This document shows positions 1,557 through 6,651 of a DNA stretch of 12,937 nucleotides, in pieces. The notes below the pieces were generated by a model. That model worked only from the letters and a program-made list of their open reading frames with translations. It had not been told where the DNA came from and did no database searches. This stretch comes from Planctomycetota bacterium. GTDB lineage: Bacteria; Planctomycetota; Phycisphaerae; WQYP01. Positions within the stretch are counted from its first letter, which is position 1; each line of letters starts with the position of its first letter. The stretch is taken from assembly GCA_021852245.1 (NCBI GenBank), contig JAJZNY010000120.1:1-12937 (forward strand), written 5' to 3'. The translations under genes were made by a program, and so were the position numbers.

Positions 1557-1628
1557 AGCGGGCGAAGGGATTTGAACCCTCGACATTCACGTTGGCAACG
1601 TGACGCTCTACCACTGAGCTACGCCCGC
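1557..1628 (-). tRNA. tRNA-Gly (anticodon GCC)
   Basis: The minus strand folds into a complete cloverleaf. A perfect 7-bp acceptor stem (GCGGGCG with CGCCCGC) joins a D arm (GCTCAGTGGTAGAGC), an anticodon arm with stem TCACG/CGTGA and loop TTGCCAA, and a T arm with TTCAAAT. The anticodon is GCC, reading glycine codons GGC and GGU. The discriminator base is T (U), as is usual for bacterial tRNA-Gly. The 3' CCA is not encoded (the next bases are TTT), so a CCA-adding enzyme is needed. Length is 72 nt. Confidence 0.97.
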
Positions 1629-1670: not shown

Positions 1671-1838
1671 TGCGCCGCCGACGGAAATCTCGCGCGGGTG
1701 AGGCAAGTTTTCCCCGGCGCTCCGGGGGAGTGCGAGTGGAAACAGGCCAGCCGCAGGCACGACGCCATACTCCCACCGTAGTTAATTACCGCCGACCGCA
1801 GGGAAAGAGAGAGAAACCCAATCAACCGCAGGGGACGG

Positions 1839-1853
1839 GCCGGCTGCGCCGGC
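1839..1853. repeat. GC-rich hairpin
   Basis: Perfect inverted repeat GCCGGC - TGC - GCCGGC (6-bp stem, 3-nt loop). No T tract follows on either strand, so it is not a standard intrinsic terminator. Confidence 0.5.
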
Positions 1854-1894
1854 AGAACGGGGAAAGTAGAAAGTGGAAAGGTGAGCATGCATGG

Positions 1895-1957
1895 GTCGTG
1901 CGAGGCACGACGGTAAGTGCTTTTTTCCACCGCAGGGGACGCTGAGGAACGCTGAGG
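1895..1957 (-). repeat. Structured dispersed repeat, copy U1 (inverted)
   Basis: Read on the minus strand, this has three degenerate 9-bp units (CCTCAGCGT-like, ending CCCTGCGGT), then an A tract and ACTTACC, then a perfect 7-bp hairpin GTCGTGC-CTC-GCACGAC. The same order (CTGCG units, GCGGT, A tract, ACTTACC, hairpin) occurs on the plus strand at 6463-6521. Read on the plus strand, the hairpin (1895-1911) is followed 9 nt later by six Ts (1921-1926), which is too far for a normal terminator. Confidence 0.6.
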
Positions 1958-1981
1958 CCGGGCGGCTGCGGTGCCAAATAG

Positions 1982-1999
1982 CCGCCGGCTTGCCGGCGG
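1982..1999. repeat. Strong GC hairpin
   Basis: CCGCCGG - CTTG - CCGGCGG: perfect 7-bp stem with a 4-nt loop. No T tract follows. It resembles short intergenic palindromes of the REP/BIME kind, but no second copy with the same sequence is seen in the window. Confidence 0.5.
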
Positions 2000-2010
2000 T
2001 AACGCTGGAA

Positions 2011-2034
2011 AGGGTATCAGGGTATCAGGGTATC
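2011..2034. repeat. Three tandem copies of AGGGTATC
   Basis: AGGGTATC occurs three times in direct tandem, with a partial AGG after it. It lies about 95 bp before the first RHS start codon. It is a short slippage-prone tract of unknown role. Confidence 0.8.
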
Positions 2035-2080
2035 AGGAAATTGAGGGGCGGACGTAACGGCCGTGGTTTGATTCCGCCTG

Positions 2081-2144
2081 CCCGGCGCGTTAGGCTTTCA
2101 TCGGTAATTCCATGTTGAGGCCGTGTTATGGTCGCAATCAATAA
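2081..2144 (+). promoter_or_regulatory. Conserved RHS leader / translation-start block, copy R1
   Basis: Shares with 3642-3703 and 6127-6188 the string CCCGGCGCGTTA, then TTTCA, then ATTCCAT and TTGAGGCCGTGTTATGGTCGC. GAGG at 2117-2120 lies 7 nt before the ATG at 2128, so part of the conserved block is a ribosome-binding site plus the codons for Met-Val-Ala-Ile-Asn. No clear -10/-35 pair was found inside it. Confidence 0.65.
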
Positions 2145-3141
2145 AATTCTGTTGCCCGAATGCACCGGTGGAGGGTGCGGTGGCGAGACCAGCACTTGCC
2201 CGGACCGCCGCGTCCACCGCCGCAATGCCGAAAACCGAGCACCGGTAACTCGCAACCATTGCCGCACGCAGCCGCTGGTGAATAACCTGTATCAGGGGAT
2301 GACGCTGGATGCGGTGACGGGGCTGTATTATGAACGCAATCGCGATTACTCGCCGAGCCTCGGCCGGTGGATGGAGGAGGACCCGGCCCAATTTATTAAC
2401 GGGGCCAATACGTATCAATTCGTCGATTCCTCGCCGGTGGGGAATGTGGATGCGCAGGGGTTGGTGGATGCCCCTGAGCCCGCATTTGAGCCCGAGCTCC
2501 CCGGTTTCAGACCCTTCGGGATCGAAAGCGGCGGCGGTGGAGAGGTGACTGCGCCTGGCGAGCCGGTGGGCCCAGGCGGCCCCGAGTTTACGCCATCCCC
2601 AGGCGTGGATGCGGCCGAGGGCGGCGGTTCCCCGACTGGGAGCCTCAGCGGCGGTGGATCCGGCGAGGGGGCGACCGAGGCCGGTTCGGGAACCGGCACA
2701 GAAACCCCCGAGGCGCCGGCGAGTGAGCCCGCGCCGGCGGCGGGCACGGCCCCGGCTGACTACCCGTCGATGGGCGAACTCGCCCGTGATCCGGCGCTGG
2801 CGAAGTACGAGCGCGTCCCCGAAATACTCGGTGAGCCGGCTACCGAATACTGCCCGGCGAGCGCCGCAGAGAGAGCAGTGCCTGAAATTCGGTTCGGTAC
2901 CGTACATGCGATGCCGCACTTCGTGGGAACGGGCGTAGACCAATCGCTGGTGGAAAACGCCATACAGTCCCAGCTGCAGAATGAATTAGCCGGGGCGACT
3001 GTTCAGGGCCCGTTCACGGGCGAGATAAACGTCGGAGGACAAACAAAAGTATATCGCGGGTTTGGCCTGCCGAATGGAACGGTAAACGTGGGAACCTACT
3101 ACCCTGTCAAACGAGGTAAGCACGATGGGAACAGAAACTGA
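2128..3141 (+). CDS. Orphan RHS-core protein with variable C-terminal (toxin-like) tip 1
   Basis: A 337-residue protein in three parts. After a short unrecognised N-terminus, residues 48-111 form an RHS-associated core (LVNNLYQGMTLDAVTGLYYE, SLGRWMEEDPAQF, GANTYQFV, ending NVDAQG). Residues about 112-210 are a Gly/Pro/Ala/Glu-rich linker. Residues about 211-337 form a compact tip with two histidines (H260, H264) and the ending YRGFGLPNGTVNVGTYYP. The tip layout (early His, late strand ending in TYYP) recalls EndoU/BECR-type RNase toxins, but this is a weak resemblance and no catalytic set is proven. The YD-repeat shell of full Rhs proteins is absent, and the usual DPxG cleavage motif at the core end is DAQG here. 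The start is the ATG in the conserved leader with GAGG 7 nt upstream. It overlaps the next gene by 17 nt, as expected for a toxin-immunity pair. Confidence 0.75.
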   Translation: MVAINKILLPECTGGGCGGETSTCPDRRVHRRNAENRAPVTRNHCRTQPLVNNLYQGMTLDAVTGLYYERNRDYSPSLGRWMEEDPAQFINGANTYQFVDSSPVGNVDAQGLVDAPEPAFEPELPGFRPFGIESGGGGEVTAPGEPVGPGGPEFTPSPGVDAAEGGGSPTGSLSGGGSGEGATEAGSGTGTETPEAPASEPAPAAGTAPADYPSMGELARDPALAKYERVPEILGEPATEYCPASAAERAVPEIRFGTVHAMPHFVGTGVDQSLVENAIQSQLQNELAGATVQGPFTGEINVGGQTKVYRGFGLPNGTVNVGTYYPVKRGKHDGNRN

Positions 3142-3502
3142 ATTCCGTGAATTGTCGGAACAGGAAAGGGTTCTGATAAGGACGCTTCTCTCGTTAAAGT
3201 TCCGAGGATCGCGCGAGCTAATGACTCAGCTACCAGATTTGCTTGCGCGACGAACTGACGAAGACGGTTCCTTGGAATTTAGGGTTCGTGGCCCCGCTTC
3301 GGCCAGCGTGCCAGATGGGCCTGTGGTGGAGGGAAATTATCCTGAGGACGCCGAGGGCGCCGAAACCCCAGTTCGGGTGAATGTCCTTCTGCATGTAAGA
3401 GGCGGCAAGCTTCGGATGTTGGAAATTTACAAGGACGATAGCTCCCCGTTAGCCGCCCCGCTCGATCCAAAAAAGCTTGCTCTGTTCAGCCCATTGGTCT
3501 GA
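3125..3502 (+). CDS. DUF6984-like small protein, candidate immunity protein for tip 1
   Basis: A 125-residue, soluble-looking protein without signal peptide or membrane segment. The pattern RELSEQERVLIRTLL near the N-terminus, DEDGSLEF in the middle, and VNVLLHVRGGKLRMLEIYKD followed by SSPL near the C-terminus matches what I recall of the DUF6984 family. This is recognition from memory, not a search. The ATG lies inside the end of the preceding RHS gene (17-nt overlap) with GAGG at 3113-3116 and an 8-nt spacer, so the two are probably translationally coupled. Position directly after a toxin-like tip and small size suggest an immunity role; this is inference. A general DUF6984 protein without immunity function remains possible. 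Confidence 0.75.
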   Translation: MGTETEFRELSEQERVLIRTLLSLKFRGSRELMTQLPDLLARRTDEDGSLEFRVRGPASASVPDGPVVEGNYPEDAEGAETPVRVNVLLHVRGGKLRMLEIYKDDSSPLAAPLDPKKLALFSPLV

Positions 3503-3557
3503 GGGCGCAGGGCGGGATGAGAGGCACGGGCCCCGGGGTCCCCTAGGCGGTGGTTCA

Positions 3558-3566
3558 TGCTATACT
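3558..3566 (+). promoter_or_regulatory. Possible extended -10 promoter before the second RHS gene
   Basis: TGCTATACT has the TGn extension and a TATACT -10, about 120 nt before the ATG at 3687. There is no good -35. Weak candidate. Confidence 0.3.
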
Positions 3567-3618
3567 CGCGGAGAACCCAGCCTCGGGCCACTGTCAGTTG
3601 CCGCGGACGGGTGCAACA

Positions 3619-3638
3619 GGGCGGCAGCTTTTCCGCCC
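3619..3638 (+). repeat. GC hairpin just upstream of leader block R2
   Basis: GGGCGG - CAGCTTTT - CCGCCC: 6-bp stem and 8-nt loop. It lies about 50 nt before the second RHS start codon. Role unknown; it may be part of the extended leader block. Confidence 0.35.
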
Positions 3639-3641
3639 CGC

Positions 3642-3703
3642 CCCGGCGCGTTATGATTTCAGTAAGGATTTCATTTTGGGGCCGATATGGTCGCGGTCAA
3701 TAA
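3642..3703 (+). promoter_or_regulatory. Conserved RHS leader / translation-start block, copy R2
   Basis: Second copy of the leader block. CCCGGCGCGTTA, TTTCA, ATTTCAT and TTGGGGCCG precede ATGGTCGCGGTCAAT. Relative to R1 and R3 it is 2 nt shorter between the purine-rich site (GGGG, 3678-3681) and the ATG at 3687, leaving a 5-nt spacer. Confidence 0.6.
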
Positions 3704-4706
3704 TGAATTGATGCACGGCGCGGAGACGATTCGCCGCCGCAGGCAGCCGCTGGTGAATAATCTGTATCAGGGGATGACGCTGGATGCGGTGACGGGGCTG
3801 TGCGATGAGCGTGCACGCGACTATTCGCCGAGCCTCGGCCGGTGGATGGAGGAGGACCCGGCCCAATTTATTAACGGGGCCAATACGTATCAATTCGTCG
3901 ATTCCTCGCCGGTGGGGAATGTGGATGCGCAGGGTAACAGCGCCGCCGTGCCGAGCCTGCGGAGCCTGACCTTGGGGATCGACCTCGGGATTCTCCAAGA
4001 TGAGCTTGCGTACTTCAAAGCCTCCGGTTACACGATGGCCGCTGCCCTCCTGCAGGGTTTTCTCGGGAACAGGAATGGCGCGGGCTACCCCGGAGGCAGC
4101 ACCAATGCCTTCAACACTCCCGCCTTCCCGAATGAGGTAAAAGGCTCCAAAGACTACCGCATTCACGCGAGCCGCTACCTGCGGAACTACATTGACGGGC
4201 TTGTGCAAAGGAACCGTGCGGCTTTCCCCAACGGCGAAGCGGTTATCGTCCCAATTCCGAAACACGCCAACATCTATATCCAGTTCTACTTCGACTTTGG
4301 GTACGGCGATTCGCCAACTCTGGCGAACGATCTGATGTATGCCTTCGGCGGCTTGGTGTTTAATTTCTCTGGCCGCATTTCCGTCACGCGCTGCCACGAC
4401 AATGTCACCTGGCCAACAAGGGGCCTCTATGTCAAAACCGATGACAATTACAATTTCCCCGTCTACACGCCCGGCAACCACAGGCATGGGTGGAGCAAGC
4501 TCTTTTTCGGTGTTTTGGCCGACCTGAAGAACTATGCTGCCGGGGCGTGGAACGCATTTGACGCGGGCTACTCCCTCCAGCACACCTTCGGATATAAATC
4601 GTTCTACCATCCGCTGAATTGGACCGACTCCTTCAGCGGCAAGTTTTCACTGTCGACTCCGCCCCCAAATTACGCTTGGATCGTGCCCAGCCTGGTGGGC
4701 GGGTAG
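3687..4706 (+). CDS. Orphan RHS-core protein with variable C-terminal tip 2 (unrecognised tip)
   Basis: A 339-residue protein. Its N-terminus (MVAVNN) and RHS core (residues about 20-83) are paralogous to the gene at 2128. DNA 3736-3934 is about 94% identical to 2261-2459, and 3825-3934 is completely identical. Directly after the core (NVDAQG) the sequence becomes unrelated: residues 84-339 are Phe/Tyr/Asn-rich and have no Gly/Pro linker. Notable stretches are SKDYRIHASRYLRNYIDGL, IPKHANIYIQFYFDFGYGD, LMYAFGGLVFNFSGRISVTR and TPGNHRHGWSKLF. I do not recognise this domain, and it shows no clear membrane helix or secretion signal. Two membrane proteins follow, which fits a tip acting at the membrane or cell wall, but that is inference. 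The YD-repeat shell is absent. The mutated core stretch CDERAR (YERNR in copy 1) suggests loose constraint there. Confidence 0.7.
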   Translation: MVAVNNELMHGAETIRRRRQPLVNNLYQGMTLDAVTGLCDERARDYSPSLGRWMEEDPAQFINGANTYQFVDSSPVGNVDAQGNSAAVPSLRSLTLGIDLGILQDELAYFKASGYTMAAALLQGFLGNRNGAGYPGGSTNAFNTPAFPNEVKGSKDYRIHASRYLRNYIDGLVQRNRAAFPNGEAVIVPIPKHANIYIQFYFDFGYGDSPTLANDLMYAFGGLVFNFSGRISVTRCHDNVTWPTRGLYVKTDDNYNFPVYTPGNHRHGWSKLFFGVLADLKNYAAGAWNAFDAGYSLQHTFGYKSFYHPLNWTDSFSGKFSLSTPPPNYAWIVPSLVGG

Positions 4707-4957
4707 GGGGGGACGGCGTCTGCTCCACCGGCGCAGCACTGGCGGAGCTTCCCGGCGGCGAGGTAAAGGAGGGGCCGGGATCGTCCGCCGAGGCCGGTTT
4801 GGCGACAGGTTTTTGCCGATGTGCTGGCGGAGGCCCGGCCCAAAGATGGAGTAAGGAAGTTGCGGCCAAGTTATCCCAGCCCACGGCATCTGGCTGTGGT
4901 TCTACCCTTAGATGCCTTGACCGTGGTGCCGACGTAGAGTGAACAGGCGTATGCCCT
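4707..4957. other. 251-bp gap with a coding-like remnant
   Basis: No complete gene with a good start is seen. One plus-strand frame is open from 4767 to the TAG at 4935-4937 and reads like protein (VWRQVFADVLAEARPKDGVR ... RHLAVVLPLDALTVVPT). It follows a good Shine-Dalgarno-like AAAGGAGG (4765-4772) but has no ATG near it; GTG at 4821 is the only usual start. It may be the tail of a displaced or decayed gene, or chance. Confidence 0.25.
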
Positions 4958-5530
4958 ATGAAGAATATCCCGGCCAAACTGATCCGTGACGTCCTGATAT
5001 GGACGCTTGCCGTGCTGCTCATCTTGATCTTCCCCTTGGCGTCCGTCGCGGTGATGGTCATACTGGGACGCCAGGGCGGTGGGAGTTATCCGTCCAGCGG
5101 GCACCCGGATATCACGTACGTTGAGGTTTCCACCCACGGGGGGCGTTGGATCGATACCCATACCTATGTGAACGTCAGCATCCTTTATGTCTCGACTAAG
5201 GCGAAGCGGGCCATGCAGGGATTTATCAACGCCAGATTGCCCGAGCAGGACCCCTGGCCCGCGTGGTGGCACGAAAGGAGAAGGTTCCCCAATGTCAGGG
5301 CCATTGTTAGTTTCGTATACCCATTCCAACCTCCCTGTTCCGCCCGTGCCAAAATATATAAGGTTCCGGGTGGCTTCTTCATGCTACTTTACCACCATTC
5401 CGATGCACCAGAACAGGCCTATTACGTACACGGCAGAAGCGCCGCCGCCTACCGCAGACTTTTCAAGCCGCTCTTTTCGGCTGGTCTGCCTTATGGCTAC
5501 GGGTACCACGGGCTCCATTTGTCGTTTTGA
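4958..5530 (+). CDS. Single-pass membrane protein, unknown function (candidate immunity protein for tip 2)
   Basis: A 190-residue protein with one N-terminal membrane segment (about residues 12-36; DVLIWTLAVLLILIFPLASV). Lys and Arg residues before it predict a cytoplasmic N-terminus and an extracytoplasmic remainder. The rest is rich in Tyr, His, Pro and Trp (PWPAWWHERRRF, YGYGYHGLHLSF) and matches no family I know. The ATG at 4958 has only a weak AGG 11 nt upstream; no better in-frame start is seen. It follows the second RHS tip in the same direction after a 251-bp gap and lies about 20 nt before another membrane protein gene. Immunity proteins to membrane- or periplasm-acting toxins are often membrane-bound, so an immunity role is plausible but unproven. 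Confidence 0.6.
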   Translation: MKNIPAKLIRDVLIWTLAVLLILIFPLASVAVMVILGRQGGGSYPSSGHPDITYVEVSTHGGRWIDTHTYVNVSILYVSTKAKRAMQGFINARLPEQDPWPAWWHERRRFPNVRAIVSFVYPFQPPCSARAKIYKVPGGFFMLLYHHSDAPEQAYYVHGRSAAAYRRLFKPLFSAGLPYGYGYHGLHLSF

Positions 5531-5549
5531 TGATATTTCGGAGATTACT

Positions 5550-5957
5550 TTGGCGAACTCCAAGGAGCAAACTTTTCTGCGTCGCTGGGGGCATGCGTGC
5601 TGGAAATTAGCGTGCAGGCTGGCTTCGCTAAGGCCGTCAGCCGCGTTGATCGCCGATATACTCGGCGCGGCCTTGGTTCTCTCTTACTTGTTGACAATTG
5701 CCCTGTTGCAATGGATGTCGCCGGTATTATTCATGACGCCCATGGCAAAGCACCCGTGGTGTATCGTCCGGTTTTGTAACGCAACTTGCGACTCCTTGGA
5801 CCTGATCGCCCTTTTCTCGTATTGGTTCACCTTCGGCGGCTGCGTTGCGGCGACTGCGTCCTTCCTCACCAGCCGTCGCGGGGATCGCCGAATTCCTTGG
5901 ATTGGGATCGTCGGATTTGCCGTTGCCACATTGATCTTGTTCTATGCACCCGATTGA
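5550..5957 (+). CDS. Small membrane protein with three predicted helices, unknown function
   Basis: About 135 residues if it starts at TTG 5550, which has GGAGA at 5540-5544 and a 5-nt spacer. An ATG at 5493 in the same frame would give 154 residues but overlaps the previous gene by 38 nt. The frame is open back to 5187, but that upstream part is the shadow of the preceding gene. Three hydrophobic segments are visible: LIADILGAALVLSYLLTIAL, LIALFSYWFTFGGCVAATAS and IPWIGIVGFAVATLILFYA. A basic, amphipathic N-terminus precedes them. It is not recognised as a known family. Its position suggests an operon with the single-pass protein at 4958, possibly as second immunity or accessory protein of the second RHS cassette. 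Confidence 0.55.
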   Translation: MANSKEQTFLRRWGHACWKLACRLASLRPSAALIADILGAALVLSYLLTIALLQWMSPVLFMTPMAKHPWCIVRFCNATCDSLDLIALFSYWFTFGGCVAATASFLTSRRGDRRIPWIGIVGFAVATLILFYAPD

Positions 5958-5969
5958 ATCTAGGCTGAA

Positions 5970-5982
5970 CCGCCACGGGCGG
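5970..5982 (+). terminator. Weak hairpin after the second cassette
   Basis: CCGCC - ACG - GGCGG (5-bp stem) 13 nt after the stop at 5957. The downstream bases (CGATTCTC) lack a T tract, so any terminator role is doubtful. Confidence 0.25.
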
Positions 5983-6126
5983 CGATTCTCAGCAAACGTC
6001 CGGCGAAGCTCTCAATTACCCACGAGTCGGGTCGCAGAATGGCGTGCCACGCGGTAACAGAGAATGGTTGGCCTACCGGCAAACGTTGCGGATGGGTGTA
6101 ATGAAGCGGCACCTCTCGTGCACCGC

Positions 6127-6188
6127 CCCGGCGTCACACTTTCATTGCAAATTCCATCTCGAGGCCGTGTTATGGTCGCGATAAATGA
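6127..6188 (+). promoter_or_regulatory. Conserved RHS leader / translation-start block, copy R3, without an RHS core
   Basis: Matches R1 closely: CCCCGGCG, CTTTCAT, ATTCCAT, then GAGGCCGTGTTATGGTCGCG, with GAGG (6161-6164) 7 nt before the ATG at 6172. The start codon opens only a 37-residue frame (6172-6285), beginning MVAINE, that runs into a dispersed repeat. It looks like a leftover leader whose RHS cassette was deleted, or a leader that never received one. Confidence 0.55.
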
Positions 6189-6244
6189 GGGATCGAGCAA
6201 TCGGAGCGGGCGGCATCGCCGGCTCGCGGCCTCAGTAACCTCTA

Positions 6245-6302
6245 CTCTGCGAACCTCCGCGTCCTCTGCGGTAAAAATGAAATAAAATCATGGCCGCATG
6301 GC
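6245..6302 (+). repeat. Structured dispersed repeat, copy U2
   Basis: CTCTGCGAA-CCTCCGCGT-CCTCTGCGG-T: three 9-bp units, then AAAAATGAAATAAAA and a degenerate CATG...CATG palindrome. The 9-bp part is the best preserved of all copies; the hairpin is the worst. Confidence 0.6.
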
Positions 6303-6365
6303 GCACGGGAGGGTACGAAAAAGCGTAAGGAGCTAATGCAAAAATCTTAATGCCTTTCATTCTTG

Positions 6366-6405
6366 GCGTGCGAAAAAAGCAAATGACATCATGCCCCAGG
6401 CATGA
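6366..6405 (+). repeat. Structured dispersed repeat, partial copy U3
   Basis: GCGTGCGAAAAAAGCAAATGACA is followed by a perfect hairpin TCATGCC-CCA-GGCATGA (6389-6405). The A tract and following bases align with U1 (GAAAAAAGCA), but the 9-bp CTCTGCG units are missing or decayed. Confidence 0.45.
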
Positions 6406-6462
6406 AGCCGTATCTCGCGCGGAGGCGGTTCAATGGCGCGAGCGAACCAGGTGCCGGAGCCT

Positions 6463-6521
6463 CTGCGAACCCCTGCGCCCTCCGCGGTAAAAATAGTTAC
6501 TTACCTCATGCGTCAGCATGA
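6463..6521 (+). repeat. Structured dispersed repeat, copy U4
   Basis: CTCTGCGAA-CCCCTGCGC-CCTCCGCGG-T, then AAAAATAGTTACTTACC and the hairpin TCATGC-GTCA-GCATGA (6506-6521). It shares ACTTACC plus hairpin with U1 on the other strand, with an A-T to G-C exchange inside the stem. Confidence 0.6.
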
Positions 6522-6651
6522 AGCGTGCTTGCTCGACTTTCACCTTTCTGGCGGCGCCGCCCGCAAAAATTGCCACGCCGTTTCGCCCCGAGGTCTCATA
6601 CCGCGTGGAGTGATCCTATCCATGGTAAATTGGGGTCGATGACTGGCAGGC

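Follow-up and report, generated by a model that had tools for sequence, protein, structure and literature searches.

Two short rhs genes with a shared core end, unrelated tips and a common leader: a probable array of mini-Rhs cassettes in a Phycisphaerae contig

Orphan Rhs tips are usually pictured as leftovers of a parent gene; they typically lie behind a full-length rhs gene and usually, if not universally, lack translation initiation signals. Published accounts describe dissociated rhs tips in Enterobacteriaceae, whose cores are identical and whose ends are unrelated (PMC2935791), orphan rhs modules with functional toxins (PMC3150448), orphan tips activated through fusion to the main rhs gene (PMC3967940), and Salmonella orphan Rhs toxins acting as toxin-antitoxin modules from internal promoters (PMC7043789). 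The stretch analysed here, called the window, is a 12,937-bp contig of a Planctomycetota bacterium of the Phycisphaerae (JAJZNY010000120.1, assembly GCA_021852245.1), which contains an array with two short rhs genes. These differ from the usual orphans in having an ATG, a Shine-Dalgarno (SD)-like signal and a conserved start motif, and in having no full-length rhs gene in front of them.

According to the reading that we consider probable, the array would be composed of two mini-Rhs toxin-immunity cassettes and a third, emptied leader, all belonging to a Phycisphaerae-type family of mobile, self-starting and mainly free-standing modules. The elements on which this reading is built are the following (aa, amino acids; ORF, open reading frame).

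2081..2142, + strand: leader element 1, with SD-like GAGG, ATG start and residues MVAIN; -10-like box altered (TTAGGC)
2128..3141, + strand: gene 1, mini-Rhs of 337 aa (leader, core, linker, effector end), TIGR03696
2261..2459, + strand: Rhs core repeat, copy 1, its last 110 bp the same as in copy 2
2461..2874, + strand: tip 1 linker, common to proteins P0002 and P0003
2875..3138, + strand: tip 1 effector end, without a relative among the fetched proteins and loci
3642..3701, + strand: leader element 2, with -10-like TATGAT, GGGG, ATG and residues MVAVN
3687..4706, + strand: gene 2, mini-Rhs of 339 aa, TIGR03696
3736..3934, + strand: Rhs core repeat, copy 2
3936..4703, + strand: tip 2, possibly colicin-M/DUF3289-like (weak)
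6125..6186, + strand: leader element 3, coreless; a 37-aa ORF starts at 6172

The two core copies agree at 187 of 199 positions (94%). All 12 differences are confined to positions 2267-2349, within the first 89 bp, while the final 110 bp are 100% identical; if 12 differences were scattered randomly over 199 positions, so clean an ending would be expected with p = 4e-5. The shared 110 bp are at most 94.5% identical to every other core compared, and the 5' core parts have different nearest relatives, L002_8016 for copy 1 (0.966) and L007_1919 for copy 2 (0.921). This mosaic is what recent recombination or conversion at the core end would produce. TIGR03696, the Rhs-associated core, was found in both genes (E 4e-16 and 3e-15), and neither whole protein has a Pfam match at E <=0.001. 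No RHS_repeat match was found in them, only 54 and 30 residues precede the core in the open stretch, and the 12.9-kb window contains no full-length rhs gene. By blastp at E 1e-3, tips 1 and 2 show no relationship. A sequence-only reading of the window had already described a core match of about 94% with an identical last 110 bp, tips sharing nothing, and carriers of about 340 residues devoid of the Rhs shell, all of which was borne out. To this are added a 5' leader element shared by the genes, an ORF for a DUF6984 protein overlapping gene 1, and inverted repeats at the flanks of the array.

Relatives were collected by scanning genome contigs with the core; 80 of the 93 relatives found were kept, giving 74 loci, all from metagenome-assembled genomes (MAGs) labelled Planctomycetota, Phycisphaerales or Phycisphaera. 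The window and these loci, 75 sources altogether, contain 142 core ORFs, every one on the strand of the match, and 42 of the 75 hold at least two. No core was confirmed in viral contigs, and neither the leader-core DNA nor tip 2 had a match in plasmids. One genome, G001 (FK5.bin10), was left out of copy-number claims because its contigs split into two coverage groups. These stand at about 1.7-1.9 and 2.8 (for example, L001, L003 and L013 against L033 and L064), and the bin may mix two organisms. Its locus L013 is identical over 3141 bp to L014, which comes from YP3.bin66.

A complete core end is present in 132 core ORFs, or 125 after removal of duplicates. Cores were compared pairwise by DNA identity over 126 nt, exact duplicates between bins (7 pairs) being removed. 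At identities of at least 0.90, with both tips of at least 60 aa, 39 pairs were obtained, of which 37 have unrelated and 2 have related tips; when tips of any length are admitted, related tips are found in 2 of 51 pairs, and between 0.85 and 0.90 in 7 of 118. Among the non-duplicate pairs listed above 0.93, the DNA match stops 0-5 nt past the core. The converse arrangement, the same tip behind other cores, is provided by the tip-2 family, whose members are P0121, P0096, P0122 and the near-identical P0052. The tips of L011 and P0121 are 98% identical over 256 aa, their leaders and core types are different, and the identity begins within the final residues of the core; in P0096, the tip follows a core which is itself preceded by an Rhs-repeat end. 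Tip exchange by recombination at the core end, as first suggested from the window alone, is supported by both observations.

Most tips are long, and the cassettes show signs of purifying selection. At least 100 aa are reached by 111 of 131 tips, compared with 3.2% in shuffles. Over 36 genes, from pairs that are not mutually independent, the median pairwise ratio of nonsynonymous to synonymous changes (dN/dS) is 0.41 when leader and core are taken together (1.22 in the out-of-frame control of the same alignment) and 0.29 in the final 42 residues of the core (control 1.12). The comparison of tip 2 with L011 gives dN 0.24 and dS 0.99. Only 5 of 117 tips have a Pfam match at E 0.001 (Ntox24 in 3, two other families in 1 each), and NCBIfam and PADLOC return isolated weak matches only. 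The notion that the tips are parts of ordinary non-toxic proteins thus finds no support, and the few matches leave the tips as putative toxins.

A second constant feature is the leader. It was matched 65 times in 28 of the 75 sources, in frame into a core in 39 cases and not so in 26. For the start motif, 91 distinct short core ORFs, selected without regard to it, were read from their first ATG: 77 have V and 65 have A after the ATG, N occupies position 5 in 53, and E occupies position 6 in 61. The pattern MVAx[NDA][EKDNG] fits 57 of the 91; among the other ORFs of 100 aa or more in these loci, it fits 6 of 1176. It is preserved across several MAGs despite divergent codons and upstream DNA. 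Upstream signals were counted at 78 starts that fit a relaxed version of the motif. A -10-like hexamer (5-6 matches to TATAAT) precedes 48 of them, against 8.7% of shuffles, and 17 of these boxes stand at one distance; an SD-like word is present at 52, a count made without a shuffle control. Genome-wide, G001, G002 and G004 yield more matches to the leader pattern than to its reversed control. In G004, 15 of the 27 copies listed within two mismatches are a single variant, unlike those listed for G001 and G002, as homogenisation or a recent expansion within the genome would yield. The cassettes would be transcribed and live mainly as free-standing modules, with toxic tips and with neighbours that act as immunity proteins.

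Other origins were considered. The lone exact match of the leader pattern to a viral sequence (L136) lacks the remaining leader and opens an ORF whose start is not Rhs-like, and was judged to be due to chance. Integron cassettes were discarded, the cut-off for the integrase TIGR02249 being passed in none of 5 related genomes, and so was an attC-like single-strand site, as folding of the three leader stretches of the window was no more stable than that of shuffles (z 0.69, 0.38 and -0.70). Separately, a leader-like element on the minus strand of L074 (1-1246), opposite to the array, opens a 415-aa ORF with neither an Rhs core nor a Pfam match.

Each cassette would be a 5'-truncated 3' end of an rhs gene, core and tip, fused in frame to the short leader. 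From the leader would come the start codon, an SD-like signal and, in many cases, a -10-like box, and behind the tip would follow a candidate immunity gene. The core end would act as a homology platform, where recombination exchanges tips and homogenises cores. The array would have arrived beside a tRNA-Gly gene as an island in the lineage of the window, and the modules would maintain themselves, occasionally feeding full-length Rhs.

Two ORFs which may provide immunity lie directly behind the tips; they are listed here together with a third, overlapping ORF.

3125..3502, + strand: DUF6984 protein (PF22480, E 3e-7) overlapping the stop of gene 1; candidate for the immunity gene to tip 1
4958..5530, + strand: ORF of 190 aa, hydrophobic at the N-terminus, with relatives in L011 and L006; candidate for the immunity gene to tip 2
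5187..5957, + strand: ORF overlapping 4958..5530 in another frame, with a relative in L006 (49% over 251 aa); start position uncertain

A partial relative of the 190-aa ORF is located 3' of the tip-2 relative in L011; in L006 its relative (dN 0.35, dS 1.07) comes after a leader without a core. The hydrophobic 3' part of the ORF at 5187..5957, after about position 5530, is probably a second membrane protein. Over the whole family, related tips are followed by related next ORFs in 15 of 50 pairs (tips matched at the C-terminal end and less than 99% identical), compared with 110 of the 8001 pairs overall, which include exact duplicates. On two Rhizobiaceae plasmids, relatives of the DUF6984 protein have no annotated toxin directly adjoining, and give the immunity role no support. 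The ORF behind the lone cassette of L004 (6037-7158) resembles, by eye, a WG-repeat protein.

Tip 1 is modular. Its 138-aa linker matches P0002 (68%) and P0003 (59%), and the three effector ends differ; that of P0002 is weakly similar to DUF4258 (E 2e-4, 22 bits, under the cut-off of 25). The effector end of tip 1 has no match among solved structures, and the DUF6984 profile matches against them reach just E 0.27 and 0.52. For gene 2, the structure model from the full alignment has a predicted local distance difference test score (pLDDT) of 29.5; tip 2 alone was modelled at pLDDT 55, with no Foldseek match at E <=0.001 in PDB or viral libraries, and colicin M was suggested in a second look only. 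The Pfam model of DUF3289 has no match in the window proteins, nor in any of 7 genomes at E <=1. The catalytic motif of colicin M is D-x-Y-D; it is not kept in the tip-2 alignment A4, where most rows hold, by eye, [DN]-x-Y-x-F alone. Tip 2 is possibly, if weakly, colicin-M/DUF3289-like, and the confidence of its model is low.

The borders of the array could be defined by comparison with related genomes, and the following features are involved.

1557..1628, - strand: tRNA-Gly (gcc) adjoining the array (ARAGORN, Rfam), kept beside proS in the sister genome
1696..6580: inserted stretch containing the array (4.9 kb), missing from the sister; ends within about 20 bp, the two BLAST matches overlapping by 8 bp
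1929..1957, + strand: dispersed repeat of the ACCGCAGAGG type, left copy, 24/29 to the consensus used
6244..6272, - strand: dispersed repeat, right copy 1, inverted relative to the left copy, 27/29
6460..6488, - strand: dispersed repeat, right copy 2, inverted relative to the left copy, 26/29

The closest genome found is G002 (YP3.bin66), with protein identities of 96% for proS and 99% for rpoD and a DNA identity of 93.9% over 4.7 kb. There the tRNA-Gly directly abuts the sequence equivalent to window position 6581 onward, 1696-6580 being missing, and a 2.3-kb gene is present on the opposite side of the tRNA. The proS loci fetched from the four congeners (G002, G003, G004 and G011) and from the more distant G001 contain no core. 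Two array sites of G002, beside accA and dapF, were compared likewise: the near-side gene and its neighbour are conserved in G003, G004 and G011, no core occurs in the 2.4 to 11.2 kb fetched beyond them, and the far-side genes were not found there. The three array sites tested are therefore each specific to one species among those compared, and of the three it is that of the window which has a clean empty counterpart. That both window genes might be fixed and co-inherited in all relatives is contradicted by the array missing in the sister and by the core-free proS loci of its congeners. A tRNA neighbourhood is not general: a tRNA was present in 5 of 27 sources scanned, two of which (L002 and L128) are the same stretch. 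On the minus strand of L117 (4853-7051), in the sister, a 732-aa ORF, glycosidase-like by eye, lies between lysS and the tRNA-Gly, which are 53 bp apart in the window; the tRNA is flanked on either side by DNA that varies among close relatives.

The dispersed repeat was found in 14 of the 75 sources, with 30 matches against 1 in a shuffle of each; it was not found at proS in the four congeners (loci L117-L120). A coreless leader is followed by a reverse repeat within about 430 bp in 7 of the 14 sources, and a forward repeat stands ahead of a leader in 5; L011, L024 and L057 depart from this order. These arrangements suggest that the repeat is a recurrent boundary of the arrays, but many loci are cut by contig ends. 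Similar dispersed repeats are common in many bacteria. Repeats of the type ACCGCAGAGGACGCAGAGGTTCGCAGAGG are located both at array ends and elsewhere (window copies; L002:14965-15678), and the minus strand of L002 (5755-7233) contains, within the array, an ORF resembling by eye an IS110-type transposase.

Several observations weigh against the interpretation as mobile, self-starting cassettes. As many as 34 of the 91 short core ORFs fall outside the start motif, the -10-like box of gene 1 is altered, and a scan with the sigma-70 consensus places no site at either leader, finding 4 sites in all against 2.2 expected. The leader pattern is not above control in G003, G005, G006 and G011. In 35 of the 50 related tip pairs the related next ORF is missing, which may reflect exchange, the simple choice of the next ORF, or absence of an immunity gene. 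The genes beside proS differ in the outgroups; because of this, a clean empty site is available in the sister only, and it is on grounds of parsimony that we infer an insertion on the branch of the window, not a loss from the sister.

The alternative that best survives is a silent store, unlikely as we judge it, in which displaced tips await recombination onto a full-length Rhs for delivery by the type VI secretion system (T6SS), the leaders just keeping immunity genes expressed. A precedent is known in Salmonella and other Enterobacteriaceae (PMC3967940, PMC2935791). In favour of such use, TssB of the T6SS was found in all four congeners searched (G002, G003, G004 and G011) and in G005, with no match in G001 and G006; several long rhs genes are present in G004; P0096 carries a tip-2 relative behind a core with an Rhs-repeat end; and no signal peptide is visible by eye in the tips. 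Against this, the window array has no adjoining full-length rhs, and G002 has 37 core matches but a single RHS-repeat match, located in a 776-aa frame which is started by the same leader. The first 1003 residues of one long rhs gene of G004 have no relative in G002, G003, G011 or G001; incompleteness of the MAGs, worst at repeats, could hide full-length rhs genes. In G004, L122 (5630-15300) contains a 2154-aa Rhs ORF and, behind it, one of 766 aa whose tip end is similar and whose start is MVSANE-like, a layout nearer to the textbook one. The start motif, the tip length and the constraint exceed what a silent store needs. The sequence-only reading had left the choice open between silent tips and free-standing small toxins; the first is the weaker because of the start motif, the frequent -10-like box, the long intact tips and the purifying selection in most short core ORFs, so that a purely silent store is disfavoured, and free-standing toxins would fit better.

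A role as intracellular toxin-antitoxin or selfish modules only, persisting by addiction with no part in competition, is consistent with the presence of own start signals and of lineage-specific islands. We hold it to be distinctly improbable: the weak colicin-M link of tip 2 and the hydrophobic N-terminus of its neighbour hint, not decisively, at an extracytoplasmic target, which counts against a purely internal toxin because such a toxin would not reach it.

Decay of former rhs loci into functionless debris would explain the coreless leaders (26 of the 65 leader matches), the truncated tips and the transposase-like ORF seen by eye in the L002 array; it is very hard to reconcile with dN/dS values of 0.24-0.41, against more than 1 out of frame, and with 111 of 131 tips reaching at least 100 aa. 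An assembly artefact, in which the 110-bp repeat, being near the short-read length, led the assembler to attach unrelated tips to one core, is barely credible, since the gene 1 protein occurs in 4 contigs and the DUF6984 protein in 6, the gene 2 variant P0052, with one core residue changed, lies on a 4560-bp contig, and the pattern of identical core and different tip is repeated in other MAGs.

If the cassettes are indeed mainly free-standing modules, one bacterial group seems to have built from Rhs tips a library that is dispersed, has a start sequence of its own and stands apart from full-length Rhs. Both the independent life of Rhs tips and the DNA-level mechanism of tip exchange are therefore amenable to test. 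As 112 of the 117 tips have no Pfam family at E 0.001 (on the assumption that the five single matches fall on five different tips), the family may also yield toxin and immunity proteins that are new. A bolder proposal, speculative and rather doubtful, is that the MVAxNE leader is more than a start signal and serves as a dedicated N-terminal tag, used in loading, export or activation. Shell-less mini-Rhs would then be a separate class of deployable effectors, carried on islands with inverted flanking repeats that settle at chromosomal sites differing from species to species and spread a rapidly reshuffled set of toxins through the Phycisphaerae.

In the literature searched (open-licence PMC papers), no title dealt with leaders of this type or with Rhs arrays of Phycisphaerae. 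The window belongs to the orphan rhs kind. It is set apart as a variant, one not found described in that literature, by a separate leader carrying the start motif, by arrays that stand away from full-length genes, and by its behaviour as an island. DUF3289/colicin-M-like T6SS effectors (PMC11148199, PMC12135965) differ from tip 2, which has no Pfam DUF3289 match, does not keep D-x-Y-D and is modelled at pLDDT 55. The silent mafB cassettes of Neisseria (PMC2935791) are similar in their variable ends flanked by conserved stretches and in their arrays of fragments, which there follow a full-length gene. The orphan rhs-CT/rhsI modules of Enterobacteriaceae (PMC2935791, PMC3150448, PMC3967940) resemble the window in their short core fragments, in tips that are unrelated although the cores are identical, in the small ORF that follows, in occurring several to an array and in having the same tip behind other cores; in contrast to them, most short ORFs described here have a common start motif, and the window array stands alone. 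Like the Salmonella orphan that acts as a type II toxin-antitoxin module (PMC7043789), the window genes would be shell-less orphan toxins with signals of their own; the promoter of the Salmonella gene lies inside the core, whereas the signals of the window genes are carried by a separate upstream leader.

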